Source: Leptolinea tardivitalis
GTDB lineage: Bacteria > Chloroflexota > Anaerolineae > Anaerolineales > Anaerolineaceae
Length of the DNA stretch: 58,948 bases
Assembly (NCBI RefSeq): GCF_001050275.1
Contig: NZ_BBYA01000004.1
Span: 1 to 58,948, forward strand
Direction: 5' to 3'
Shown here: piece by piece, positions 1 to 12,194 of the stretch
Layout of the letters: the number at the start of each line of letters is the position of its first letter
Numbering within the stretch: position 1 is the stretch's first letter
Notes under the pieces: generated by a model
Seen by the model: only the letters and a program-made list of their open reading frames with translations
The model's database searches: none
What the model was told of the DNA's origin: nothing
Position numbers and translations under genes: made by a program

Positions 1-79
1 CTTTTTCTGTTTTGTTCCCTTTTTGATAGCGGGGTCGGATGGTTTCTACTAATTCTCGCTTGCTTTGTTGACTCATCAT
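1..79 (-). CDS. IS transposase, N-terminal fragment (runs off left edge)
   Basis: Reading leftward from an ATG at 79-77 the frame is open to the window edge and begins MMSQQSKRELVETIRPRYQK. This resembles the start of integrase-type (DDE) transposases. A good ribosome binding site (GAGGGAG) lies just upstream, at about 84-90 on the plus strand. Only about 26 residues are inside the window, so the family cannot be fixed. An IS inverted repeat lies immediately upstream (113-170), and a matching transposase C-terminus appears at the right edge. The assignment therefore rests on the N-terminal sequence plus the repeat context. Confidence 0.7.
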   Translation of the reverse strand, partial: MMSQQSKRELVETIRPRYQKGNKTEK

Positions 80-170
80 AGCTCCCTCGGCAGCTCTCTA
101 TTCTCTGCCCAAGGTAACATCTATTGTGAGGCAACGTTTCTCCTAAAGTTACTTTTAATTTGAGGCAATG
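1..170 (-). mobile_element. Left-edge insertion sequence end
   Basis: This is the transposase-start end of an insertion sequence. Two related boxes, at 113-136 and 160-170, carry TGAGGCAA and reappear in inverted orientation at the right edge of the window (58778-58785 and 58811-58834). The 24-base box at 113-136 matches its partner at all but two positions. Spacing between the two TGAGGCAA boxes is nearly equal at both ends (26 and 27 bases). The exact outer tip and any target duplication cannot be set from this window. Confidence 0.7.
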
Positions 171-179
171 CGAGAATCA

Positions 180-212
180 ATAAACGGCTGCCAATGAATG
201 GCAGCCGTTTAT
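180..212 (-). terminator. Hairpin terminator downstream of the rhodanese gene
   Basis: A perfect 14-bp stem (180-193 with 199-212) encloses a 5-base loop. On the minus strand it ends in a short T-rich tract. It lies 25 bases past the rhodanese stop codon, between that gene and the insertion sequence, and is nearly symmetric, so it could work in both directions. Confidence 0.75.
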
Positions 213-236
213 GATTAACAGATTTTTCTCCGGGTT

Positions 237-689
237 TTATTTACCTGTTTCGATCGGGTATCCGCTGGCTTTCCATTCTGTCACACCACCGGCCATACTG
301 GTCACATTTTCAAATCCTGCATTCAGAAGAATATCCCTCCCCTGTGCACTTCGACGGCCTGTTCGGCAAACAACCACGACAGTTTTGTCTTTGGGTATTT
401 TTGTAAGTTCGTTTGGTAAAGTTCCCAAAGGTATCAATGTAGCACCTGGTATATGCAACTCATCCCATTCACTTTGCTCCCGCACATCAAGGATGAATGC
501 ACCCTGATCTCGTAATTTTGCCACTTCCGCAACGTTGATCTCAGCAGCCATTTTTCCTGTACCTTTTTGTGTTCCTGGAATCAGAAAAATGACAGCCAGA
601 ATTACAATAATTACACCTGCTGCAATCCATAACCAGATACGGTTCGTATTTTCTGCTTTTTTCTTTTTCCGGTTTTGTGAAGTCGTCAT
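237..689 (-). CDS. Membrane-anchored rhodanese-like domain protein
   Basis: A 150-residue protein with a basic cytoplasmic N-terminus, one membrane segment (about residues 17-38, IWLWIAAGVIIVILAVIFLI) and a single rhodanese domain. The catalytic loop CRTGRRSA fits the rhodanese CxxGxRS pattern, so the Cys nucleophile is present and sulfur-transfer or redox chemistry on the extracytoplasmic side is likely. The start at 689 is chosen because AGGAGA lies 5-6 bases upstream. A longer reading from 743 lacks a ribosome binding site and would add a His/Cys-rich stretch. The gene is divergent from the two-component system at 853. The sulfur substrate cannot be told from the sequence. Confidence 0.85.
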   Translation of the reverse strand: MTTSQNRKKKKAENTNRIWLWIAAGVIIVILAVIFLIPGTQKGTGKMAAEINVAEVAKLRDQGAFILDVREQSEWDELHIPGATLIPLGTLPNELTKIPKDKTVVVVCRTGRRSAQGRDILLNAGFENVTSMAGGVTEWKASGYPIETGK

Positions 690-852
690 TGTCTTCTCCT
701 GCTGGCAAAAATGTTCATGTATTTTAGATGGATTATTATGCAATACGTTTCATGGACTTCCGATGTAGATTTTATATCGAATCGAGAAAATATTAGATAA
801 TAGATTACATGATATTCACAATTTCTTCAAATTCCTTGATTATCCTATACCT

Positions 853-1557
853 ATGACTTCTGTGGATAAGAACATACTAATCGTGGATGATGAACCCCAG
901 ATTATCCGGGTTCTGAAAGGGTATCTCGAAAATGCCGGCTATCGGGTACTTTGTGCCGGGAACGGGAAAGATGCCCTTTCAATTACTATGGTAGAAAAAC
1001 CCGATTTTGTCATTCTCGACTTGAATCTTCCTGGGATGGACGGTCTGGAAGTCTGCAAAGCCATTCGCGAAAAATCAAATGTCCCCATACTAATGTTAAC
1101 AGCTCGTTCGGAAGAAGCAGATAAAATAATCGGCCTCGAACTGGGAGCGGATGATTATATAGTCAAACCATTCAGCCCTCGTGAGATTGTCACCCGTGTG
1201 CGGACAATATTTCGCCGCGTTTCCGGTGATGCCGCCAGACCAGAGACTATTCGCGTTGGAAATCTTTTTATTGATATCGACAAACATATTGTCCGACTGG
1301 CTGACCAGATTATCGACCTGACTCCAACCGAATTTGACCTGTTGGTTACCATGGCCAGACAGCCAAAGCGGGTATTCACTCGTGCGCAGTTGCTCGAGAG
1401 CGCTATTGGGGAATCATTTGAAGGATATGATCGGACCATTGATACTCATATAAAAAATTTGAGGAACAAGCTGGAACCCAATCCACGAAAACCACAATAT
1501 ATTCAAACAGTTTTCGGTATTGGGTACAAATTTGAAGTGAGCGAACATGCGTCATAG
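853..1557 (+). CDS. OmpR/PhoB-family response regulator
   Basis: A 234-residue DNA-binding response regulator. The receiver domain (about 6-120) has the acidic pair D12/D13, phospho-acceptor D56, switch T83 and K105. The C-terminal winged helix (about 130-228) contains the usual LTPTEFDLL and RTIDTHIKNLRNKLE segments. The stop overlaps the start of the histidine kinase by 11 bases, so the pair is translationally coupled. No strong ribosome binding site precedes the ATG. The target genes are unknown; the divergent rhodanese gene is one possible target. Confidence 0.95.
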   Translation: MTSVDKNILIVDDEPQIIRVLKGYLENAGYRVLCAGNGKDALSITMVEKPDFVILDLNLPGMDGLEVCKAIREKSNVPILMLTARSEEADKIIGLELGADDYIVKPFSPREIVTRVRTIFRRVSGDAARPETIRVGNLFIDIDKHIVRLADQIIDLTPTEFDLLVTMARQPKRVFTRAQLLESAIGESFEGYDRTIDTHIKNLRNKLEPNPRKPQYIQTVFGIGYKFEVSEHAS

Positions 1558-2992
1558 TCTAATTGTCAAATTGATGGGAGCTTTTTTTCTGCTGATCATA
1601 ATCTGCGCTCTGATTATCTTTACCGCAACTACAAAGGCTACCAAACAAGCGTTTGTTCGATATTCAGACAACAATCGTCAAACATGGACTCAACGATTGG
1701 CAGAGAACCTGGCAGATTATTACCAATCCAATGGCAGCTGGCAGGGAATTGATGAGGTTCTAACATCTGAATTCACCAGAGGAAACCATAATTCCGGCAT
1801 GATGATGGGAAAGGGAAAAAACGGAAGAACGGGTTTTCCAATCGTCATGGGCGGCATGATGGAATCTACCCAGCGATTGATCCTGTCAGATGCCAATTCA
1901 AATGTGTTGTTTGATTCAGCCGCTGAACTGACTGGGAAAAAATTACCCGATACAGAATTGCAATCCGGAACTCCCATTTCTCTGGAGAATCAACAGGTAG
2001 GGACGATCCTGGTTTCTTCAGAATCGATGAGAAGCGGAACACCGGCAGCCGAATTTATTAATTCGGTGAATCATTCCATTATTCTCTCCATTCTTGCCGG
2101 CGCCATTATTTCCATTATTCTTGGAGCTGTGCTTTTCAACCAGTTTACTTCTCCATTGCGTCAATTAAAAAAAGCTGCCGTGGAAGTGGGAAATGGCAAT
2201 TTCCACCAGAGAGTTACCATCAAATCACATGACGAATTTGCCGAAGTTGCGCATTCTTTCAATCAGATGACGGAAAGTCTTGAAAAAGCAGAAGAAAGTC
2301 GTCTTCATTATATGGCAGATATTGCCCATGAATTGCGTACTCCTCTTACAGCCATTCAGGGAACGATAGAAGCCATGCAAGATCGGATTCTTCCTCTGGA
2401 TGATGAACAACTTGAAATTCTCCATAATCAAACAACCATACTGAACCGTCTGGTGAACGACCTGCGCCTGCTTTCACTGGCAGAGACAGGTCATCTTAAA
2501 TTGGATAAGATCTCTCTCTCGCCTTCAGAGTTTATTCAGAAAACTGTGGACAGCCTAAAACCACTGGCAATTCCCAAGAACATCACTTTGAAAACGAATC
2601 TGCCAATCGGGCTTCCAGATTGGTCGCTGGATCCTGACCGTTTTACACAGATTCTCAACAACCTGCTGAGTAATGCGATTCGATATACACCGGAAAATGG
2701 AGAAATCATCGTTGATGCCGTCTATCATCCGACACATAATGAATTGGAGATCAGTGTAACAGACTCAGGGATTGGGATTTCTTCAGAAGATCTTCCTTAT
2801 ATTTTTGACCGTTTTTACCGGGTGGATAAATCACGAACACGGTTGAGTGGAGGAGCCGGCCTGGGATTGGCCATCGTGAAAAGGCTGGTTGAAGCCCACG
2901 GTGGGAAGATCACCGTTGAAAGTCCTGTTTTTCCCGGCATTAATAAACCAGATTATGGCTCACGATTTAAGATATTGCTTTCCAGTAAATGA
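1547..2992 (+). CDS. HAMP-domain sensor histidine kinase
   Basis: A 481-residue membrane sensor kinase partnered with the preceding regulator. It has a transmembrane helix at about 8-27, an extracytoplasmic region of about 145 residues, a second helix at about 177-200, a HAMP linker, then the kinase core. The H-box is DIAHELRTPL with phospho-acceptor H261. N (NLLSNAIRYTPEN), G1 (DSGIGIS), F (FDRFYRVD) and G2 (GAGLGLAIVKRL) boxes are all present, so it should be active. The sensor region carries a Met/Gly/His-rich patch at about 81-106 (HNSGMMMGKG and VMGGMM), unlike a typical folded sensor loop. The ligand is unknown. Confidence 0.95.
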   Translation: MRHSLIVKLMGAFFLLIIICALIIFTATTKATKQAFVRYSDNNRQTWTQRLAENLADYYQSNGSWQGIDEVLTSEFTRGNHNSGMMMGKGKNGRTGFPIVMGGMMESTQRLILSDANSNVLFDSAAELTGKKLPDTELQSGTPISLENQQVGTILVSSESMRSGTPAAEFINSVNHSIILSILAGAIISIILGAVLFNQFTSPLRQLKKAAVEVGNGNFHQRVTIKSHDEFAEVAHSFNQMTESLEKAEESRLHYMADIAHELRTPLTAIQGTIEAMQDRILPLDDEQLEILHNQTTILNRLVNDLRLLSLAETGHLKLDKISLSPSEFIQKTVDSLKPLAIPKNITLKTNLPIGLPDWSLDPDRFTQILNNLLSNAIRYTPENGEIIVDAVYHPTHNELEISVTDSGIGISSEDLPYIFDRFYRVDKSRTRLSGGAGLGLAIVKRLVEAHGGKITVESPVFPGINKPDYGSRFKILLSSK

Positions 2993-3046
2993 ATGTCATT
3001 AAATTGAAGAATAATCCCATCTGAGAAATCAATTTTTCGTTATTCC

Positions 3047-3074
3047 TTGACAAGGGCCATCGTTCCCTTATAAT
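3047..3074 (+). promoter_or_regulatory. Promoter of the histidine operon
   Basis: Perfect consensus hexamers: TTGACA at 3047-3052 and TATAAT at 3069-3074, separated by 16 bases. The predicted transcription start is about 3081-3084, which places it 0-5 bases from the ATG of the His-rich leader peptide. Confidence 0.85.
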
Positions 3075-3083
3075 TTCATTTAT

Positions 3084-3137
3084 ATGGAACAGATTTGTAT
3101 TGCCTTGCATCATCATCACAATTTCTCCCCCAATTGA
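3084..3137 (+). CDS. hisL: his operon leader peptide (four consecutive His codons)
   Basis: A 17-codon frame, MEQICIALHHHHNFSPN, whose codons 9-12 (3108-3119) are CAT CAT CAT CAC. It lies between a consensus promoter and a strong terminator just ahead of hisG, as expected for an attenuation leader peptide that senses charged tRNA-His. No ribosome binding site is possible upstream, because transcription should start at or within about five bases of the ATG, so translation is probably leaderless. The stop codon (3135-3137) falls inside the first base of a set of mutually exclusive stems, where classical attenuation needs it. The symbol is given by function and not by homology to enterobacterial HisL. 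Confidence 0.8.
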   Translation: MEQICIALHHHHNFSPN

Positions 3138-3205
3138 TCGGCGGAGCTGTTTTCGTTTACCATAAGGCAGAAACATCAACCCCCGGTCAACCGGGGGATT
3201 TTTTT
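3125..3205 (+). promoter_or_regulatory. his transcription attenuator with competing stems
   Basis: Four segments can pair in alternative ways. Segment 1 (3125-3131) pairs with segment 2 (3139-3146) in an early stem with one C-C mismatch. Segment 2 in its longer form (TTGATCGGCGG, 3134-3144) pairs with segment 3 (CCCCCGGTCAA, 3180-3190) over 10 of 11 positions, including one G-U, to make an antiterminator. Segment 3 pairs with segment 4 (CCGGGGG, 3191-3197) to make the terminator. A ribosome stalled on the His codons would mask segment 1 and free segment 2. A ribosome reaching the stop would cover 1 and 2 and allow termination. Pairings were worked out by eye. Confidence 0.8.
3180..3205 (+). 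terminator. Terminator arm of the his attenuator
   Basis: A 7-bp all-GC stem (3180-3186 with 3191-3197) with a TCAA tetraloop is followed by seven T residues (3199-3205). It lies only 19 bases before the hisG start codon, so it must be conditional for the operon to be expressed. It may also stop read-through from the upstream kinase gene. Confidence 0.85.
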
Positions 3206-3224
3206 ATCCAGAAGGGAATACATA

Positions 3225-4241
3225 ATGCTCAATCGCGAAACAACCGACCTTCGACTCTCACTTCCGTCCAAAGGCAGATTAGCAGAAGAAACATTGGATT
3301 TTATGTCTGATTGCGGTCTGACAGTCTACCGACCCAATCCCCGGCAATATGAAGCCGTTATCCCGGCACTCCCGTCTGTACGTGTCCTCTTCCAACGGCC
3401 GCCGGATATTGTGGTCAGTGTGCGTGAAGGGACAGTCGATTTCGGCATAACCGGTCTGGATGTGGTGGAAGAGCGCAAAGGTGACCAGAACGAAGTTCTC
3501 GTGATTCATGATGCACTCAATTTCGGTCAATGCCGTCTGAATCTGGCTGTTCCAGAAGCCTGGTCGGATGTTTCCACTGTAGATACTTTAGCCCAAAAAG
3601 TGAAAACTTTTAACCGAAAACTTCGGGTGGCTACAAAATACCCGGAGCTTACGGGAAAATTTCTACAATCAAAAAATATTGAACACATCTTGATCCCAGC
3701 AGAAGGCACCCTGGAAACTGCTCCATCCATCGGGTACGCCGACATGATCTGTGATATTGTCTCGTCAGGACAAACATTGCGAGACAATCGTCTGGTGGCT
3801 CTTCCCGATGGCTGCCTTCTGAATTCACAGGCAGTACTCATTGCAAACCGTGATTCTCTGGTCAACAGACCCGAAGCTCTACAGGCAGCTCGTTTTCTAC
3901 TGGAATTTTTTGAAGCCCACCTTCGAGCTAACGAGAACCTCTCCATTTTTGCCAATATACGCGGAGAATCACCGGAAGCAATCGCCGAATCGATTTTCAA
4001 ATCCTGTCATATCCCCGGTTTGCAGGGTCCTACAATTTCTAGAGTGATCGTGCGTGAGCCGGGTGAAAACTGGTATGCCGTTAATATCATTGTTCAACGG
4101 AGTAATCTGTTCCAGGCAATTACAGAGCTTCGCTCCATTGGCGGCAGCGGTGTGGTGGTAACACCTGTGAAATATATTTTTGATGAAGAACCTCCCAGGT
4201 ACACAGCTTTATTGAAAACATTGATGGAGTATCAATCATGA
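3225..4241 (+). CDS. hisG: ATP phosphoribosyltransferase, long form
   Basis: First enzyme of histidine biosynthesis, condensing ATP and PRPP. The 338-residue protein has the periplasmic-binding-like catalytic domain (LPSKGRLAEETLDF near the start, GTVDFGITGLDVVEE, and the segment SIGYADMICDIVSSGQTLRDN around 165-185). A C-terminal regulatory ACT-like domain follows (YAVNIIVQRSNLFQAITELRSIG, about 285-307). This makes it the long, self-regulated form that does not need HisZ. It is somewhat longer than the roughly 300 residues usual for that form. The start is supported by AGAAGGGA seven bases upstream. Expression is predicted to be controlled by the attenuator just before it. The stop overlaps hisC by four bases. 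Confidence 0.95.
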   Translation: MLNRETTDLRLSLPSKGRLAEETLDFMSDCGLTVYRPNPRQYEAVIPALPSVRVLFQRPPDIVVSVREGTVDFGITGLDVVEERKGDQNEVLVIHDALNFGQCRLNLAVPEAWSDVSTVDTLAQKVKTFNRKLRVATKYPELTGKFLQSKNIEHILIPAEGTLETAPSIGYADMICDIVSSGQTLRDNRLVALPDGCLLNSQAVLIANRDSLVNRPEALQAARFLLEFFEAHLRANENLSIFANIRGESPEAIAESIFKSCHIPGLQGPTISRVIVREPGENWYAVNIIVQRSNLFQAITELRSIGGSGVVVTPVKYIFDEEPPRYTALLKTLMEYQS

Positions 4242-5341
4242 CTGCCAGTATCGGAAAACGGATAGTAGAAATGCCGGCCTATATTCCTATCGAACCCATC
4301 GACGTATTGGCTGCCCGCCTGAACATCCCGGCAGAAAAGATTGTCAAGATGGATGCCAACGAGAATCCCTATGGGCCGTCACCTTTGGTGAAAGAGGCTC
4401 TCGCCCGGCTTGATCTGGTCAATATATACCCCGATCCGGAAAGCCGAAAACTGCGTGACGGTTTATCCAACTTTCATAAAGTCCCAATGGAAAATCTGCT
4501 GGCTGGTTCTGGAGCAGATGAATTGATTGATCTGTTGGTACGGGTCCTTTTGGAACCGGGTGATTGTGTAATTAATTGTGTTCCCACTTTCGGGATGTAC
4601 AGTTTTGACACTCTCTTGAACTATGGCACATGTATTAGCATCCAGAGAAATGCAGATTTTTCACTCGATCAGGAAGCAATCGAGGTAGCTGTCCGAAAGA
4701 ATAAACCGAAAATCATCTTTGCCTGTTCCCCAAACAATCCTGACGGACGATTGCTGACCGGCGAGGAAATTGACTTTTTGTTATCGCTTCATACATTGGT
4801 TGTAGTGGATGAAGCCTATATTGAATTTACCCAGCAAAACCTTGATTTAGGCCGCAGCCGATCCATCATTACACAGACACCCAAACGTGAAAATCTGGTG
4901 GTTCTGCGAACCTTTAGTAAATGGGCTGGATTGGCAGGTTTGCGTGTTGGATTTGGCGCCTTTCCATCCTGGCTGATGGATTCACTTTGGAAAGCCAAAC
5001 AGCCATACAATGTGAATATTGCCGCATCTGCCGCTGCTTTGGCTTCCCTGTCTGATGATGCATATCTTGCCGGTAATGTCGCCAGAATTCAACAGGAACG
5101 TGCCCGTCTATTTACCAAATTGCAGTCGCTACCCACACTTCAACCTTATCCATCACAATCGAATTTCATTTTATGCAAAACTAAAAATGTCTCCGCCATA
5201 GAGATAAAACGAAAACTGGCATCCAGAGGTGTTTTTATCAGGCATTATGATAATGCTCTTCTGAAAGATTGCATCCGCATCTCTGTAGGAAGACCAGAAG
5301 ATACAGATGAGTTAATTCATCAATTGGAGGGAATTTTATGA
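4238..5341 (+). CDS. hisC: Histidinol-phosphate aminotransferase
   Basis: A 367-residue fold-type I PLP aminotransferase that transfers an amino group to imidazole acetol phosphate. Family signs are MDANENPYGPSP near the N-terminus, the CSPNNPDG segment, VVDEAYIEF, and RTFSKWAGLAGLRVG carrying the PLP lysine K228. The C-terminal arginine region IRISVGRPEDTD is present. The start codon overlaps the hisG stop (ATGA), and the stop overlaps hisB in the same way. Length is normal. Confidence 0.95.
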   Translation: MTASIGKRIVEMPAYIPIEPIDVLAARLNIPAEKIVKMDANENPYGPSPLVKEALARLDLVNIYPDPESRKLRDGLSNFHKVPMENLLAGSGADELIDLLVRVLLEPGDCVINCVPTFGMYSFDTLLNYGTCISIQRNADFSLDQEAIEVAVRKNKPKIIFACSPNNPDGRLLTGEEIDFLLSLHTLVVVDEAYIEFTQQNLDLGRSRSIITQTPKRENLVVLRTFSKWAGLAGLRVGFGAFPSWLMDSLWKAKQPYNVNIAASAAALASLSDDAYLAGNVARIQQERARLFTKLQSLPTLQPYPSQSNFILCKTKNVSAIEIKRKLASRGVFIRHYDNALLKDCIRISVGRPEDTDELIHQLEGIL

Positions 5342-5970
5342 CTGTGGAAACAAAATCAGATATATCTCGTTCATCAACTGTAAAACGCAAAACATCAGAA
5401 ACCGATGTAAACATCCAGATCAATCTGGATGGAATCGGTCGAAGTGATATTAAAACAGGCATCGGATTCTTCGATCATATGTTAAATCAACTGGCCTGTC
5501 ACGGTCTGTTTGACCTTGACATCAAGGCTGCCGGTGATCTTAATGTGGATAACCATCACACCATCGAAGATGTGGGATTAACATTGGGAGAAGCGTTTTC
5601 ACGTGCACTCGGAACCCGAAAAGGCATCGTACGTATGGGGGAAGCCACTGTCCCTATGGATGAAAGCCTGGCCTTCACCTGTGTGGATTTTTCCGGTCGT
5701 CCATATTGTGTGATCAAATCAAAATGGCAGGGGGAATCGATCGCAGCCATTCCCACCAGTCTTCTGGAACATTTCTGGTCATCTTTTGCCATCACATCTG
5801 GCTGTAATATTCATATCCGGGTTCTTGAAGGTCAGGATAACCACCATATGGCTGAAGCCATTTTCAAGTCAGCGGCAAGAGCCATATTGACAGCCACCCG
5901 CATCGATCCGCGAAGAGCCGGTGTTGTTCCCTCAAGCAAAGGGACTATCGGTTTCTCAGGGACAGTCTGA
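5338..5970 (+). CDS. hisB: Imidazoleglycerol-phosphate dehydratase
   Basis: A 210-residue monofunctional dehydratase. The duplicated metal-binding motifs FFDHM, DNHHTIEDVG and EGQDNHHMAEA are intact. There is no N-terminal HAD phosphatase domain of the enterobacterial bifunctional type, so histidinol-phosphate phosphatase must come from another gene. It overlaps hisC by four bases and ends two bases before hisH. Confidence 0.95.
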   Translation: MTVETKSDISRSSTVKRKTSETDVNIQINLDGIGRSDIKTGIGFFDHMLNQLACHGLFDLDIKAAGDLNVDNHHTIEDVGLTLGEAFSRALGTRKGIVRMGEATVPMDESLAFTCVDFSGRPYCVIKSKWQGESIAAIPTSLLEHFWSSFAITSGCNIHIRVLEGQDNHHMAEAIFKSAARAILTATRIDPRRAGVVPSSKGTIGFSGTV

Positions 5971-5972
5971 CC

Positions 5973-6587
5973 ATGAGCACAACCGTACAGTTGATTGATG
6001 CAGGAACCGGGAACCTTCAATCTGTCCATAATGCTCTTACCAACCTGGGAGCGCAGATTGTGTTGGTTTCTCAAGCGGTTGAATTAAAAAAAGGATTACG
6101 CACAATTCTGCCAGGCGTGGGGGCATTTCGGCAATTTATGGAAGGCCTGCAAGGTCGTGGTTTTTCGGAGCCTGTACATCAAATTGCGCAATCTGGCGTA
6201 CCACTGTTAGGTATTTGTGTGGGAATGCAAGCCATGTTTGATACAGGAGAAGAATTGGGTGAATTTTCTGGTCTGGGGATTATTCATGGAAAAGTTACAC
6301 GTTTTCCAGATCAAACCTCTTTCAAAGTGCCACATACCGGATGGAACAATATAACAGCCGCCAAACCTTCCCCGTTGTTGACAGGCATTGAAGATGGGTC
6401 ATACTTTTATTTCAACCATTCCTATTATTGCCAGCCTCTGGATGATACCGATACTCTGACACTGACAGATTACATACAGCCATTTTCATCTGCCATATCC
6501 AGAGGATCTGTTTACGGAGTTCAATTCCACCCTGAAAAAAGCCAGAAAATGGGCCAGATATTGCTGAATAATTTTCTTAAACTATAA
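5973..6587 (+). CDS. hisH: Imidazole glycerol phosphate synthase, glutaminase subunit
   Basis: A 204-residue class I glutamine amidotransferase that supplies ammonia to HisF. The nucleophile elbow GICVGMQAMF gives C82, and QFHPEKS gives H186 and E188, completing the triad. The N-terminal DAGTGNLQSV segment is typical of HisH. It starts two bases after the hisB stop. Confidence 0.95.
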   Translation: MSTTVQLIDAGTGNLQSVHNALTNLGAQIVLVSQAVELKKGLRTILPGVGAFRQFMEGLQGRGFSEPVHQIAQSGVPLLGICVGMQAMFDTGEELGEFSGLGIIHGKVTRFPDQTSFKVPHTGWNNITAAKPSPLLTGIEDGSYFYFNHSYYCQPLDDTDTLTLTDYIQPFSSAISRGSVYGVQFHPEKSQKMGQILLNNFLKL

Positions 6588-6608
6588 AATACGTAACAGG
6601 AAAGACCA

Positions 6609-7346
6609 ATGACCGCTTTTACCATTTTCCCTGCTATTGACCTGCGCGCCGGGCAGGTAGTCCGTCTCAGTCAGGGTGATCCCGATAAACAAAAGGTTTA
6701 CAGTTCTGATCCTGAAATTGTGGCTCGATCAATGCTGGAACAGGGCGCCACATGGCTGCATGTTATCAACCTTGATGGTGCTTTCGGAGAATCATCCACA
6801 TCGAATTTATCTGCCCTTGCGAAAATTATTCAGACTGCCCGGGAATTCAAAGCCCATATCCAATTTGGAGGTGGATTACATACGCTGGATCAGGTTCGGG
6901 CGGTACTATCCAATGGTATCGACCGGGCTATCCTGGGAAGTATGGCTGTGAAAGAACCTGAAAATATCCGCACGCTTCTTTCGGAATTTAACACACAACA
7001 AATTGGCGTAAGTTTGGATGGCCGTAAGAACGAAATCATGGTTTCTGGATGGCAAAAGGCATCAGGGATCACTGTTTTTGATCTTGCAGATAACTTGAAG
7101 TCCATGGGGCTTGCGTGGATTGTTTACACAGATATTGACCGGGATGGAATGCAATCGGGCAGCAATTTTGAGACAACCATTTCCCTCGCCCGAAAGACAA
7201 AAATGAACATAATTGCCTCAGGCGGAGTCTCCACCATACAAGAGGTGAAAGCCCTGAAAACCGGCGGAGCAGCCGGTGCCATTATCGGGCGGGCCTTGTA
7301 TGAAGGAACGCTTGGATTACCAGAATTACTGGAATGTGCCAGGTAG
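6609..7346 (+). CDS. hisA: ProFAR isomerase (HisA)
   Basis: A 245-residue half-barrel-duplicated TIM barrel converting ProFAR to PRFAR. The N-terminal [14 protein letters not shown] carries the catalytic D11. The second half carries [13 protein letters not shown] with the second acidic residue. Phosphate loops FGGGLHT and IIASGGVST are present. The short gap after hisH contains CAGGAAAG as ribosome binding site. Confidence 0.95.
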
Positions 7347-7356
7347 GAGACCAATC

Positions 7357-8127
7357 ATGCTGACAAAAAGAATTATTCCCTGTCTGGACATTAAAGACGG
7401 CCGTGTTGTAAAAGGTGTGCAATTTGTAAATCTTCGAGATGCCGGTGATCCGGTGGAACAGGCAAAGATTTACGACCAATCCGGTGCGGACGAACTGGTA
7501 TTTTTAGATATTTCTGCCAGTGCAGCCGGTAAAGATACCTGTCTGGATGTAGTTCGCAAGGTAGCGCGAGCCGTATTCCTTCCATTTACTGTGGGTGGAG
7601 GTATCCGAACGGTTGAGGATATGCGCAATCTCCTTCTGGCTGGTGCCGATAAAATCAGTATCAATACCTCTGCCGTTCAGAATCCCGATTTGATCTCCGC
7701 CGGGGCAAAAGCCTTCGGAAGCCAGTGTATTGTCCTGGCTATTGATGCCCGGAAACAGACTGACCATAGTCGTTCAGGATATGGTGTGACGATTCACGGC
7801 GGACGTACCCCCGTAGATCTGGATGCAGTTGAATGGGCCCGACGTGGTGTTGAGTTGGGCGCCGGAGAAATCCTGTTGACCAGTATGGATCGTGATGGCT
7901 CATTGAATGGATACGATTTAGAACTGACTCGTTCTGTAGCAGAAGCGGTTGCCGTCCCGGTCATTGCATCTGGTGGTGCAGGTAAAGAGCAGGATTTCGC
8001 CGATGTTTTGACAATTGGCAAAGCCGAAGCTGCATTGGCCGCTTCCCTCTTTCATGATGGTATCTTGCCAATTCCTGCTCTTAAAAGTTTTCTCTTTGAA
8101 CGAAAAATCCCGATTCGCCGGGTATAA
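7357..8127 (+). CDS. hisF: Imidazole glycerol phosphate synthase, cyclase subunit
   Basis: A 256-residue TIM barrel that works with HisH to close the imidazole ring and release [25 protein letters not shown] carries catalytic D11, and D130 lies in IVLAIDA. The start at 7357 is preferred because the family begins exactly here and GGAGA lies upstream. A longer reading from 7276 would overlap hisA by 71 bases with non-family sequence. Confidence 0.95.
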
Positions 8128-8151
8128 ATATGAATAATCAGGAAAAATAAA

Positions 8152-8472
8152 ATGGATCAGATTAAAAACCTGAAATATGATTCCCATGGTTTGATTCCGG
8201 CTGTGGTTCAAGATGCTGAAACCAACATGGTTTTAATGGTTGCCTGGATGAATCAAGAAGCCTGCCAGTTAACAGTGAAAACAAGACAGGTGCATTTTTG
8301 GTCGCGTTCCCGTCAGGAGATATGGCGTAAAGGAGCCACTTCGGGAAATACGCTTGAACTCGTCTCTCTCTGGCTGGATTGTGATGCCGATACCCTTCTG
8401 GTTAAGGTGAAACCTGCCGGTCCGGCATGTCATACAGGTAATACATCATGCTTTTATCGTGAGTTAAAATAG
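8152..8472 (+). CDS. hisI: Phosphoribosyl-AMP cyclohydrolase
   Basis: A 106-residue zinc enzyme that opens the adenine ring of PR-AMP. The family segment VAWMNQEACQLT, the WSRSRQEIWRKGATSGN segment, DCDADTLLVKV and CHTGNTSCFY supply the expected Cys and metal ligands. It is monofunctional, with hisE as a separate gene 21 bases downstream. Confidence 0.95.
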   Translation: MDQIKNLKYDSHGLIPAVVQDAETNMVLMVAWMNQEACQLTVKTRQVHFWSRSRQEIWRKGATSGNTLELVSLWLDCDADTLLVKVKPAGPACHTGNTSCFYRELK

Positions 8473-8493
8473 TTATATTAGATCAAGGTGGAT

Positions 8494-8769
8494 ATGAATA
8501 TCAATGACCTATACGCAGTAATCTTGGATCGGAAAGAAAATCCCACAACATCATCCTATACAACCAGTTTGTTCAAAGCTGGTCAGGATGAAATCTGCAA
8601 GAAAGTTGGGGAAGAAGCGATTGAAGTTATAATAGCGGCAAAAGGCCAGGGGAAACAACGTCTGGTGGAAGAAGTATCAGACCTGACCTATCATGTTCTT
8701 GTTCTCATGGCACAAAATCAGGTCACACCGGATGATATTTTGGGAGAACTGGAAAAACGCCATAGATGA
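8494..8769 (+). CDS. hisE: Phosphoribosyl-ATP pyrophosphatase
   Basis: A 91-residue all-alpha pyrophosphohydrolase (MazG-like fold) acting on PR-ATP. The segments SYTTSLFKAGQDEICKKVGE and EEAIEVIIAAKG, plus the later EEVSDLTYHVLVL, carry the acidic Mg-binding residues. The start is ambiguous between ATG at 8494 and GTG at 8488, two codons earlier. The ATG is chosen because AAGGTGG precedes it closely. The stop overlaps the next gene (ATGA). Confidence 0.92.
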   Translation: MNINDLYAVILDRKENPTTSSYTTSLFKAGQDEICKKVGEEAIEVIIAAKGQGKQRLVEEVSDLTYHVLVLMAQNQVTPDDILGELEKRHR

Positions 8770-9944
8770 AAAAGACGATTTTTCTGTTTGATATGGATGG
8801 TGTTCTGGTTGAGCCCAGACGATACCGGGCTTCGCTTCAAAGCACCATTAATTATTTCGGCAGGATCATGGGGTGGAAGGAGCTCTATCCCGGAGAAGAA
8901 ACGATCGCCTGGTTTGAATCCAGGGGGATCATCAGTGAATGGGATATCGCCCCGATTTACATCGCCAGCGTTGTTGAGAGCGTTCTTGAACAGTATTCCA
9001 ATTGGCCTATACCACCGGATTTACTTTCTTTTTGTGAATATGTAAAAAAATCTGGGATACCTAAACCAGAATTTAATGTCAAGGAGATTGTGGGGCAGCT
9101 CCCAAGCCTGAAGAAATCCGGTTTCACTTATTGTGATCTGGTCCTGTATCTGATCGAAACCGGTCCTGCACGGCAGGCATTCGGCCGTCTTTCAGGCACC
9201 TCACTTCTTGACAGTATTCTGCAAAAATCACGAAATGTGCACCAGAATCTGATCACCCGGGTTTTTCAAGAAGTTTTCCTCGGGCAAAACGCCTTTGAGA
9301 ATACGTTTTACCTACCGGCAATCTGTTTTGACCGGGTTACCGAGCACATCATCGATCCTCAATTAATTACAGATGAATGGAATACCACCCTGAAAAAACG
9401 TTGGCAGGATGGACTTGTGGATCCAGCCATTATTACAGCCAGACCTTCTTATCATAATTATCCGGCTGGTGAGGGACGTATTGAATTTTCCCCAGAAGCC
9501 GATATTATTGTTGACCAGTTGGGCTGGAATCGTTTTCCAGTAATTGGTCAGGGGCAGCTTCAATATGCGGCTGACCAGTTGGGATGTGTCTCTGTCGACT
9601 TAATCAAACCCTCCCCGGTACATGCTCTGGGCGCCATCGGCATGGTGGTAACTAATAGTCTGCTGCCATCCATTCAAGCCGGTTGGGATCTATTAAATAA
9701 TGAAGAAACAAGTTTCTATAACGGCTTTCCGGAGTTGGATGTTCATATTTTTGAAGATTCGCCCGTAGGGATCAGGGGAACCATGCGGGCTGTCGATCTG
9801 CTTGAAATGCAGGGGGTCACTGTTCGGTTGACCAAATGGGGAATTTCTACAGATCCCAATAAGGTGAGCGAATTGCAGAAATTGGATGCGAATATTGTAC
9901 CGGATGTGAATGCCGCTCTCGAACAAATCGAGATTATCGAATAA
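8766..9944 (+). CDS. HAD-superfamily protein coupled to the his operon
   Basis: A 392-residue protein opening with FLFDMDGVLVEP, which is HAD motif I (D9 and D11). A later FEDSPVGIRGT near residues 323-335 fits HAD motif IV, and VVTNS could supply motif II. About 300 residues lie between, much more than in small phosphatases, so the cap region is large and unrecognised. Its start codon overlaps the hisE stop by four bases, so it is the last gene of the his operon. The operon lacks a histidinol-phosphate phosphatase, and HAD enzymes do fill that step in other bacteria (HisB-N), so this is a candidate. That is inference from context only. Confidence 0.7.
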   Translation: MKKTIFLFDMDGVLVEPRRYRASLQSTINYFGRIMGWKELYPGEETIAWFESRGIISEWDIAPIYIASVVESVLEQYSNWPIPPDLLSFCEYVKKSGIPKPEFNVKEIVGQLPSLKKSGFTYCDLVLYLIETGPARQAFGRLSGTSLLDSILQKSRNVHQNLITRVFQEVFLGQNAFENTFYLPAICFDRVTEHIIDPQLITDEWNTTLKKRWQDGLVDPAIITARPSYHNYPAGEGRIEFSPEADIIVDQLGWNRFPVIGQGQLQYAADQLGCVSVDLIKPSPVHALGAIGMVVTNSLLPSIQAGWDLLNNEETSFYNGFPELDVHIFEDSPVGIRGTMRAVDLLEMQGVTVRLTKWGISTDPNKVSELQKLDANIVPDVNAALEQIEIIE

Positions 9945-10031
9945 TCCTTGTTCAAAAAATCCAGGATTGTTGATTTTCAGTTCAGAATCCGATGGTAAAC
10001 TGATGTGAGAACAATCCCAGGATAACCATTT

Positions 10032-11009
10032 ATGACTGATCTAACTGCCACTGCCGTTTCACATCCCAATATTGCCTTTATTAAATACTGGGGGAACCTC
10101 AATTCTGACTTGCGCATACCGTTAAATGGATCCATCTCCATGAATCTGGCCGGTTTAGAGACCCGCACTCTTGTTAAATTCGATCCTGCATTATCCGCCG
10201 ACCAATTTGTTCTGAATGAAGCTCCAGCAGACAGTAATGCCACACAACGTGTTTCCACCTTCCTTGATTTAATTCGTTCTCTGGCGGATTTGACATTACA
10301 TGCCCGCGTCACAAGTACCAACAATTTCCCCACAGGCGCTGGAATTGCTTCATCGGCGGCAGCCTTCTCAGCACTGGCGTTGGCTGGCAGCAGGGCAGCC
10401 GGACTTTCTTTGGATGAAAAAGCTCTGTCTCGTCTTGCCCGTCGGGGTTCTGGTTCTGCCTGCCGTTCCATTCCAGATGGCTTTGTCGAATGGCTTCCAG
10501 GTACAACAGATGAAGATTCGTATGCAATGTCCATCGCTCCCGCCAATGCCTGGAATCTGGTCGATGTAATCGCCGTTGTAGCGGCAGGTGAAAAGAAAGT
10601 CGGTTCAAGTGAAGGCCATAATCTTGCAAATACCAGTCCATTTCAGAATGCTCGTGTTTCAGATGCTCCCCGCCGCATAGCATTATGCCGAGATGCAATC
10701 CTTCATCAAGATTTTTATTCTCTGGCCGCCGTAATGGAACTGGATAGCGATATGATGCACTCAGTTATGATGACTTCAAAACCTCCCCTGTTTTACTGGG
10801 AACCGGCATCGCTTCGCATCATTAAAGCAGTACCAGAATGGCGCAAAAATGGCCTACCCTGCGCATATACTCTGGATGCAGGTCCGAATGTCCACATTCT
10901 TTGCCCTGCCAGTATCGCCCCGGATGTAGAAAAAAGGCTAACAAAAATGGAAGGCATCACACAGATACTTACAGCTGGAGTCGGCGGCCCGACTCATCTG
11001 GTGGATTAA
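10032..11009 (+). CDS. mvaD: Diphosphomevalonate / phosphomevalonate decarboxylase family
   Basis: A 325-residue GHMP-fold decarboxylase of isoprenoid synthesis. It opens with SHPNIAFIKYWGN, has the GHMP ATP loop PTGAGIASSAAAFSA and the decarboxylase signature GSACRSIPDGFVEW. The family normally converts mevalonate diphosphate to isopentenyl diphosphate. In the Chloroflexota species Roseiflexus castenholzii a homologue was reported to act on mevalonate 5-phosphate instead, with isopentenyl phosphate kinase finishing the route. Sequence inspection alone does not decide between these here. No other mevalonate gene is in the window. Confidence 0.88.
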   Translation: MTDLTATAVSHPNIAFIKYWGNLNSDLRIPLNGSISMNLAGLETRTLVKFDPALSADQFVLNEAPADSNATQRVSTFLDLIRSLADLTLHARVTSTNNFPTGAGIASSAAAFSALALAGSRAAGLSLDEKALSRLARRGSGSACRSIPDGFVEWLPGTTDEDSYAMSIAPANAWNLVDVIAVVAAGEKKVGSSEGHNLANTSPFQNARVSDAPRRIALCRDAILHQDFYSLAAVMELDSDMMHSVMMTSKPPLFYWEPASLRIIKAVPEWRKNGLPCAYTLDAGPNVHILCPASIAPDVEKRLTKMEGITQILTAGVGGPTHLVD

Positions 11010-11029
11010 TTAAAAGTTTATAAGAACGA

Positions 11030-11057
11030 TTCAAATTACCGCTAAAATGGCTATAAT
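11030..11057 (+). promoter_or_regulatory. Putative rseP promoter
   Basis: TTCAAA at 11030-11035 and TATAAT at 11052-11057 are 16 bases apart. A CAGGTA-N5-TACCTG inverted repeat (11066-11082) begins at about the predicted transcription start. Confidence 0.55.
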
Positions 11058-11105
11058 ACAAAAAGCAGGTATTTATTACCTGATCCGTTTTTATCAGGAA
11101 TAGAA

Positions 11106-12194
11106 ATGAATTTAACTTTTTTAGCAACGATTTTCGAATTTATTATTGCCTTTGGGCTTTTACTTTTTCTGCATGAGTTTGGCCATTTCATTGCATCCAG
11201 ACTATTTGGAATTGAAGTAGAAGAATTCGGATTTGGATTTCCTCCCCGGTTGGTAAAATTGTTCACCTGGAAAGGAACCGAATTTACGCTAAATTGGATT
11301 CCCTTTGGCGCATTTGTCCGTCCGAAAGGTGAAAATGACCCGGAGGTACCGGGAGGTCTGGCTGCAGCCAACCCCTGGAAACGCCTGGTTGTACTGGTTG
11401 GTGGACCGTTTTTTAACATCCTGACCGGAATAATTATTTTTACCATCCTTTTCACCCGTACCGGAGCTCCGGATGTAAAAACTGTCCAGATTATGGAAGT
11501 CGCTAAAAATTCCCCCGCCGAGACTGCCGGGATTATGGCGAACGATATTATCTCCAGAGTCAATGGGGAAGAAATTACCAGTACTACACAGCTTTCCACA
11601 ATAGTAAAGGCGAATCTGGGAAAAGAGATTACCATGTCTCTTATTCGGCAGGACAAAATAATTAATGTAAAAGCAACCCCCAGATTAAATCCGCCACCCA
11701 ATCAGGGTTCGCTTGGGATTGTGATGGGCAATCCCATCAAACCAATCTCAGTATTCCAGGCAATTCCGTATTCACTCATCACCACAGGCGCCCAGGGTGC
11801 CGCCCTCATCACCATGCCCATTCAACTGATGCGCGGGCAGGTAGCCGCCGAAGATGCCCGTATGGTTGGCCCGGTAGGCATGTATGACATTTACTCACAG
11901 GTGAGATCCCGCGATATCACAGCCGAATCCAAACCCGCCAGTACAGCCGCAGATACCATGAATCGCTTTTGGCTGCTAGGGATCATTTCGGTTGCTCTTG
12001 GTTTCACCAATTTGCTCCCCATTCCTGCACTTGATGGCGGCCGTATCATTTTTGTGCTGGCCGAATTGATTTTCCGCAAACGTGTTCCCGCTCAATATGA
12101 AAACATGGTCCATCTGATTGGTTTTGCTGCGTTGATTGCTCTTATGGTGTACATTACCTCGCAGGATATTACCAACAGAATTATCCTTCCCTGA
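11106..12194 (+). CDS. rseP: RIP-type site-2 metalloprotease RseP
   Basis: A 362-residue intramembrane zinc protease. HEFGH (23-27) in the first membrane helix gives the zinc ligands, a PDZ domain (about 120-200, with SPAETAGIMANDIISRVNGEE) sits in the middle, and the third ligand lies in NLLPIPALDGGRIIF (about 303-317). Several hydrophobic helices are present at both ends. It probably releases anchored regulators or clears signal peptides. A family-typical single PDZ domain is seen, unlike the two of the E. coli enzyme. The next gene follows after 14 bases. Confidence 0.93.
   Translation: MNLTFLATIFEFIIAFGLLLFLHEFGHFIASRLFGIEVEEFGFGFPPRLVKLFTWKGTEFTLNWIPFGAFVRPKGENDPEVPGGLAAANPWKRLVVLVGGPFFNILTGIIIFTILFTRTGAPDVKTVQIMEVAKNSPAETAGIMANDIISRVNGEEITSTTQLSTIVKANLGKEITMSLIRQDKIINVKATPRLNPPPNQGSLGIVMGNPIKPISVFQAIPYSLITTGAQGAALITMPIQLMRGQVAAEDARMVGPVGMYDIYSQVRSRDITAESKPASTAADTMNRFWLLGIISVALGFTNLLPIPALDGGRIIFVLAELIFRKRVPAQYENMVHLIGFAALIALMVYITSQDITNRIILP

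Follow-up and report, generated by a model that had tools for sequence, protein, structure and literature searches.

The leader of hisG in Leptolinea tardivitalis (Chloroflexota, Anaerolineae, Anaerolineaceae) is very likely a ribosome-mediated, histidine-sensing transcription attenuator, the leader peptide of which would be translated from a leaderless start (5′ UTR of 0-5 nt). It lies in a stretch of 58,948 nt (hereafter the window; the leader elements and the his operon are on the forward strand). The parts of the attenuator, their conservation, the co-variation between segments 2 and 3 and the missing Shine-Dalgarno-like site can be read from the sequences of the window and its relatives.

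Organization of the hisG Leader

The promoter consists of a −35 hexamer TTGACA (3047-3052), which keeps its position with respect to the leader in relatives, and a −10 hexamer TATAAT (3069-3074), separated by a 16-nt spacer. As originally predicted, it is a full consensus promoter (12/12 match), and it is the only such match among the 21 promoter-like sites of window positions 1-12000, a number at the chance level (21.5 in shuffles). The leader ORF, MEQICIALHHHHNFSPN including the stop, comprises 17 codons (3084-3137) with its ATG at 3084, 9 nt past the −10 hexamer and without a Shine-Dalgarno-like site, and its TGA at 3135-3137. The four consecutive histidine codons that had been noted in it, CAT CAT CAT CAC (3108-3119), are the putative regulatory codons.

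The GC-rich hairpin followed by seven T was likewise found as described: the intrinsic terminator hairpin CCCCCGGTCAACCGGGGG at 3180-3197 contains seven G-C pairs and is built from segment 3 (3180-3190), which supplies the 5′ arm and loop, and segment 4 (3191-3205), which supplies the 3′ arm followed by A and seven T (3199-3205), with a gap of 19 nt to the hisG ATG (3225). Segment 2 (3134-3146), which overlaps the stop codon, has two alternative partners. Its pairing with segment 3 gives the antiterminator, in which 10 of the 11 positions of 3134-3144 pair with 3180-3190, exactly as had been proposed, one of the pairs being G-U. Segment 2 can also pair, through 3140-3146, with segment 1 (CTCCCCC, 3125-3131); the resulting 1:2 stem, which joins 3125-3130 to 3140-3146, is a weak one in the window. 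A further element, at 3147-3154, is a possible partner of the start-codon region (3087-3092) that is weak in the window and co-varies in other genera.

The leader region 3081-3205 folds better than its dinucleotide shuffles (z −2.65; 5/200 shuffles equally good), but its minimum-energy form is an extended antiterminator, in which the Ser-Pro codons pair with the 3′ arm, and not the terminator.

The leader is followed by the long form of hisG (3225-4241; TIGR00070 and HisG_C-term) and by hisC, hisB, hisH, hisA, hisF, hisI and hisE (4238-8769), giving the order hisG-C-B-H-A-F-I-E. According to the NCBIfam assignment of the operon genes, hisI is the phosphoribosyl-AMP cyclohydrolase gene, hisE is the phosphoribosyl-ATP diphosphatase gene, and hisD is absent from the operon. 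Genes for a response regulator and a sensor kinase lie directly upstream of the operon (853-2992), and their best NCBIfam matches, BaeR and BaeS, are below the cut-off.

Distribution of Histidine Leaders

Leaders were sought as ORFs with at least three consecutive His codons, in frame with a start codon, at most 420 nt before hisG; the rule sets no promoter threshold, and the best promoter near the start was then reported. All four genomes of the genus have hisG, and all four have the leader. In the family, hisG was found in 39 of 101 genomes, as 37 long-form and two short-form loci (L005, L006), and a His-run leader precedes 35 of the 37 long-form genes. The two misses (L007, L012) belong to one genus and come from genomes in which hisD precedes hisG; in both, a leaderless His leader is found before hisD instead (L312 in the genome of L007 and L201 in that of L012). 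Elsewhere in the order, where eight genomes have hisG (two of them not fetched), the leader is present in five of the six fetched loci, L106 being the exception.

At greater distances the leader becomes sparse. In other families of the class, it precedes hisG in 5 of the 24 fetched long-form loci (L108, L119, L120, L121, L125), and in the other 19 no His-run ORF was found before hisG (L129 had no upstream sequence). None of the 30 loci fetched from other classes of the phylum has a His-run ORF before hisG; among these, L150 and L155-L157 are anchored near an edge without usable upstream sequence, and L143, L146 and L155-L157 best matched the short-form query. A pattern scan of the phylum matched 12 of 201 genomes. 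Nine of these lie outside the class, and in them a leader rule yields only one doubtful ORF with a TTG start (L323). Short-form hisG genes were set aside as carriers of the leader, since the 62 such loci fetched (L005, L006, L041-L100) contain a single His-run ORF (L096), which is without a near-consensus promoter.

In total, 45 leader-bearing hisG loci from 27 genera were obtained, with runs of three to five His codons and, in 43 of them, a terminator found by rule (L119 and L120 are without one). An alignment of 21 leaders shows little conservation beyond three features: the His run, the terminator and a motif at the stop codon, with the consensus CTGACCGGAGG. The original prediction named a lack of the His run or stems in relatives as one of three outcomes that would refute it; both prove conserved, the His run in these loci and the stems in the swap tests described below. 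The His runs of the 45 leaders contain 144 CAT and 16 CAC codons; the hisG frames of these loci, to the extent that they were fetched, contain 83 and 102, respectively (Fisher p 7e-20, with codons treated as independent).

Histidine leaders are also found before other genes. The hisD gene of the window's genome (L165/L197, contig C5, 20350-21881; TIGR00069, 502.6 bits) stands alone behind a leader, MKPVLFAHLHHHRLFTLDTFRRAH, that is of the leaderless His type by its spacing (10 nt after TATCAT) and has a terminator. A leaderless His leader also precedes hisD in two of three relatives of the same genus (L203 and L313, the latter a hisD fragment at a contig end). Overall, leaderless His-rich leaders precede hisD in 7 of 30 loci (L187, L188, L197, L201, L203, L205, L212; the doubtful L207 is left out of this count, and L187, L188 and L205 have His-rich stretches and not HHH) and in two of five further hisD stretches (L312, L313). 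By coordinates, hisD closely follows hisG in 18 of the 30 hisD loci.

A scan of the class for TTGACA, TANNNT and, 20-50 nt later, CATCATCAT gave 34 matches in 30 of 298 genomes, as compared with one for the reversed control. Among the 30 loci fetched, leaderless His leaders with an ATG start were found before hisG (L290-L292, L292 being the window), before a hisH-like gene (L287) and before hisZ-like genes in two short-form genomes (L310, L311); the hisH-like and hisZ-like names are readings of N-termini with no family search behind them. Nine loci were left unparsed (L283-L286, L298, L300, L301, L306, L307). Of these, L283-L285 represent the His leader of one genus, and two of the three adjoin hisG by coordinates; the others have no in-frame start, a distant start or an unrelated ORF.

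Inferred Leaderless Initiation

Distances between the start codon and the −10 hexamer are biased in the rule-based survey, because the search for the start was limited to 4-12 nt from the hexamer. An unbiased anchor was therefore taken, namely the best promoter (spacer of 16-18 nt) within 150 nt upstream of the His run, with start codons ignored. With this anchor, the first in-frame ATG or GTG lies 6-11 nt past the −10 hexamer in 40 of the 45 loci, and the best promoter scores at least 10/12 in 38 of 45, as compared with 38 of 900 shuffles. When the promoter reported by the His-run rule is taken, 40 of 45 loci reach this score, the five below 10 being L028, L103, L108, L120 and L125. By usual promoter spacing, a distance of 6-11 nt corresponds to a 5′ UTR of 0-5 nt, and transcription in the window is predicted to start 2-3 nt before the leader ATG.

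The original prediction held that no ribosome binding site can exist. Shine-Dalgarno-like pairing to an anti-Shine-Dalgarno stretch (cut-off ≤ −6 kcal/mol) occurs at none of the 45 leader starts, as compared with 16% of random stretches and with 36 of 44 hisG starts when a single start is taken per locus, or 38 of 45 if each locus may use the best of its possible starts. This absence is partly forced, because the A+T-rich −10 box occupies the stretch in question.

The pattern TTGACA-N15-18-TANNNT-N6-10-ATG occurs 22 times in the window's genome and four times when reversed as a control; six of the 22 sites open frames of 126-296 codons, and the others open short ORFs, some of them without evident meaning. 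The excess rests on the exact TTGACA, because TTGAC followed by another base shows none; a weaker promoter class was accordingly rejected, since the relaxation to TTGAC gives 51 matches as compared with 43 for the reversed control. In a published analysis, leaderless genes are predicted in 4 of 12 Chloroflexi genomes, averaging 4.7% of genes (PMC3160421).

An alternative is that the leader is a his attenuator whose transcript starts further upstream, so that it is not leaderless. Four of the 45 loci, in which the first in-frame start lies 25-61 nt from the chosen −10 box, and one in which it lies at 3 nt, agree with such a start. However, the prevailing 6-11-nt distance, the lack of Shine-Dalgarno-like sites at leader starts as opposed to hisG starts and the genomic excess of TTGACA promoters with an ATG 6-10 nt past their end make this reading unlikely. 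We infer that initiation at the hisG leader is leaderless.

Alternative Pairings and Their Co-variation

Pairing between segments was assessed by a partner-swap test, in which the pairing of each leader with its own partner is compared with its pairing with the partner of another species (10000 permutations). Among the 43 leaders with a terminator, both the 3:4 pairing (z −17.2) and the 2:3 pairing (z −7.2) exceed every permutation (0/10000 as good), as compared with z −2.3 (110/10000, not quite null) and −0.7 (2337/10000) for control pairings. Kinship was handled solely by taking one locus per genus; with these 25 loci, 3:4 (z −10.7) and 2:3 (z −5.9) again give 0/10000, and the controls give z −1.5 (679/10000) and 0.0 (4899/10000).

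In the alignment of 21 of the 43 leaders, segments 2 and 3 are paired in 89% of cells, and their covariation score of 0.180 is reached by none of 500 shuffles; double changes are found in four of the ten pairs, a count that 50 of the 500 shuffles reach. The terminator is paired in 94.6% of cells of the same 21 rows and shows no double changes there. The predicted antiterminator is mutually exclusive with the terminator and co-varying between genera. Of the three mutually exclusive stems claimed originally, two (2:3 and 3:4) are upheld by the swap tests, 2:3 also by the covariation score of the alignment, and the third (1:2) is weak in the window.

The same test detects a stem between the start-codon region and the stretch behind the His run, for which no permutation is as good (0/10000) either in all 43 loci or with one locus per genus (25 loci; z −7.8). 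In 21 of the 43 loci, including L002, the own partner is in the best tenth of partners. This is not the case for the window, L003 and L004, and the stem was rejected for the window itself, because 55% of the swapped partners pair as well as its own.

These results also bear on the possibility that the elements before hisG are an ordinary terminator and a short ORF placed there by chance, termination being constitutive or making a small RNA. Terminator-like sites are indeed no more common in window positions 1-12000 than in shuffles (13 as compared with 12.5). The recurrence before hisG, in 27 genera, of in-frame His runs, a promoter and (in 43 of 45 loci) a terminator, the presence of His leaders before hisD, hisH-like and hisZ-like genes and the co-variation of 2:3 nevertheless make such a coincidence very unlikely. 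Control by another sensor, such as a T-box, a riboswitch or a leader-binding protein, is least probable of all: T-boxes and the HisR repressor do control his genes in Gram-positive bacteria (PMC9413887), but an Rfam search of window positions 2900-3400 gave no match above the cut-off of any family, and the conserved part of the leader peptide is the His run. The best sub-threshold matches there are anti-hemB (18.4 bits; 49.5 needed) and others including Phe_leader (17.1; 55 needed), and His_leader is not among the 14 families listed at E ≤ 10. In 20 related loci (14 hisG leaders, two hisD, two lysW and two without a His run), the Rfam search found only a tRNA, so that T-boxes, riboswitches and known leader families were rejected for the window and these loci alike.

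Proposed Mechanism

In the attenuator that we propose for hisG, ribosome stalling and the direction of control are inferred. When charged tRNA-His is plentiful, the ribosome would reach the UGA stop codon and cover segment 2, and the 3:4 terminator would form. When charged tRNA-His is short, the ribosome would stall on the His codons and segment 2 would stay free; it would then pair with segment 3, holding the 5′ arm of the terminator, and the polymerase would continue into hisG.

This scheme was examined with a static model in which the ribosome masks 30 nt and the output is the probability that the 5′ arm of the terminator is held by upstream sequence. For the window, the predicted values are 0.86 without translation, 0.86 with the ribosome stalled on the His codons and 0.13 with the ribosome at the stop codon; the corresponding means of 43 loci are 0.49, 0.72 and 0.37. 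In this static model, 31 of the 43 loci have a stalled value more than 0.1 above that at the stop, and 28 have one more than 0.1 above that without translation. In the remaining 12 loci, a ribosome at the stop lowers the value by no more than 0.1; in 10 of them the stop codon is 51-66 nt away from the beginning of the run, so that the decision there may rest on the speed or release of the ribosome.

Because the untranslated leader of the window is predicted to hold the antiterminator, termination in the window would require translation as far as the stop codon. In other genera, the start-region stem would tie the start codon to the stretch behind segment 2, and through it transcription of an untranslated leader probably terminates by default; in the window this stem is weak.

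Putative Leaderless Leaders upstream of lysW and Other Genes

The lysW gene of the window's genome (TIGR01206; L178/L231, contig C12, 182389-182781) is preceded by a leaderless ORF, MFTKSFVFTPLKKRSSKINPSGERSF, and by a terminator. By rule, a leaderless leader precedes lysW in 13 of 30 family loci, and three more (L221, L228, L236) were added by eye. In these 16 leaders, three of which are counted in part, CGA makes up 29 of 45 Arg codons, as compared with 74 of 887 in the hisG frames. Lys codons, 29 in all, occur in 14 of the 16 leaders, which counts against a purely arginine reading. Arginine is preferred as the sensed amino acid, because an argH-like gene seems, by eye, to precede several other lysW genes, and the lysW leader is probably an arginine attenuator.

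A tryptophan counterpart was sought and rejected, since none of 11 trpE-type loci of the family has a leaderless leader by rule. PF04715 (anthranilate synthase N-terminal) has no match in the window's genome, which therefore perhaps lacks trpE.

Two other sites of this genome stand out. At L171 (contig C9, 405249), a dihydroorotase-like gene lies behind a consensus promoter that has an ATG near its −10 box; a terminator-like hairpin is also present, and the short ORF runs through it without an obvious codon run. At L177 (contig C12, 172328), the short ORF, likewise leaderless, contains a hairpin and precedes a gene that by eye is cold-shock-protein-like.

On the whole, it seems fairly likely that Anaerolineae use attenuation through leaderless leaders lineage-wide, with His leaders before hisG, hisD, hisH-like and hisZ-like genes, Arg (CGA) leaders before lysW and a co-varying start-codon stem through which transcription terminates by default unless the 5′ AUG is engaged. 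If so, this habit would represent another origin of leaderless attenuation, perhaps a separate one, and would include an arginine-sensing leader for the LysW-type arginine pathway.

Comparison with Known Attenuators

The E. coli his leader carries seven consecutive His codons and a ribosome binding site of its own. The published passages drawn on here describe the his operon attenuator of E. coli and Gammaproteobacteria as tandem His codons, alternative hairpins and a terminator (PMC9413887), and the window resembles it in having a His-codon leader, alternative hairpins and a terminator before a his operon; it differs in that the Rfam leader families give no match in the window or the related loci. 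In Firmicutes, three to five consecutive His codons are found before his operons (PMC9413887), and in bacilli a His leader precedes hisS* and hisZ (PMC2965389). These leaders share the His runs and are likened here by description alone; the passages concerned do not mention leaderless starts.

The original prediction regarded a leaderless version as unusual, which is too strong, because leaderless leader peptides have been published for Actinobacteria and Sinorhizobium, and in this family they are the rule. In Streptomyces lividans, LeuL, TrpL, IlvL, MetL and ThrL, which precede amino acid genes, are leaderless by RNA-seq mapping of transcription starts (PMC8079986); this is another phylum, no histidine leader is among the eight listed in the passages available, and several of those leaders are without a clear intrinsic terminator. 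The ilvB attenuator of Corynebacterium glutamicum has a leaderless leader, and its 5′ hairpin, described as an anti-antiterminator, also shields the start codon (PMC11857589, in part). That hairpin resembles the co-varying start-region stem of the window's relatives, whereas the C. glutamicum system concerns branched-chain amino acids in Actinobacteria and the window has only a weak shielding stem. In Sinorhizobium meliloti, the trpL attenuator RNA has the ATG of its leader ORF at the very 5′ end (PMC7298713, in part); this system differs in concerning tryptophan, in belonging to Alphaproteobacteria and in that its RNA and peptide also act in trans.

Attenuation across bacteria was reportedly surveyed by Lopatovskaya and colleagues in 2010. 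As far as the passages available go, leader-peptide attenuation is placed in Proteobacteria, Actinobacteria and Firmicutes (PMC9413887, PMC2965389). Among the matches listed in searches of the mostly open-access literature on attenuation in Chloroflexi or Anaerolineae, leaderless leaders and arginine leaders, as far as their text was available, neither a leaderless His leader nor an amino-acid attenuator of Chloroflexi was found. As far as that literature reaches, the leaderless His specificity, the phylum and the sister leader, probably for arginine, before lysW are therefore new. If the hisG leader acts as proposed, the range of leader-peptide attenuation includes Chloroflexota, where leaderless initiation would be adequate for a regulatory decision that needs tight coupling of ribosome and polymerase; the homologous leaders of 27 genera would then form a natural series for studying the loading of ribosomes on a 5′-terminal AUG before a downstream stem closes.
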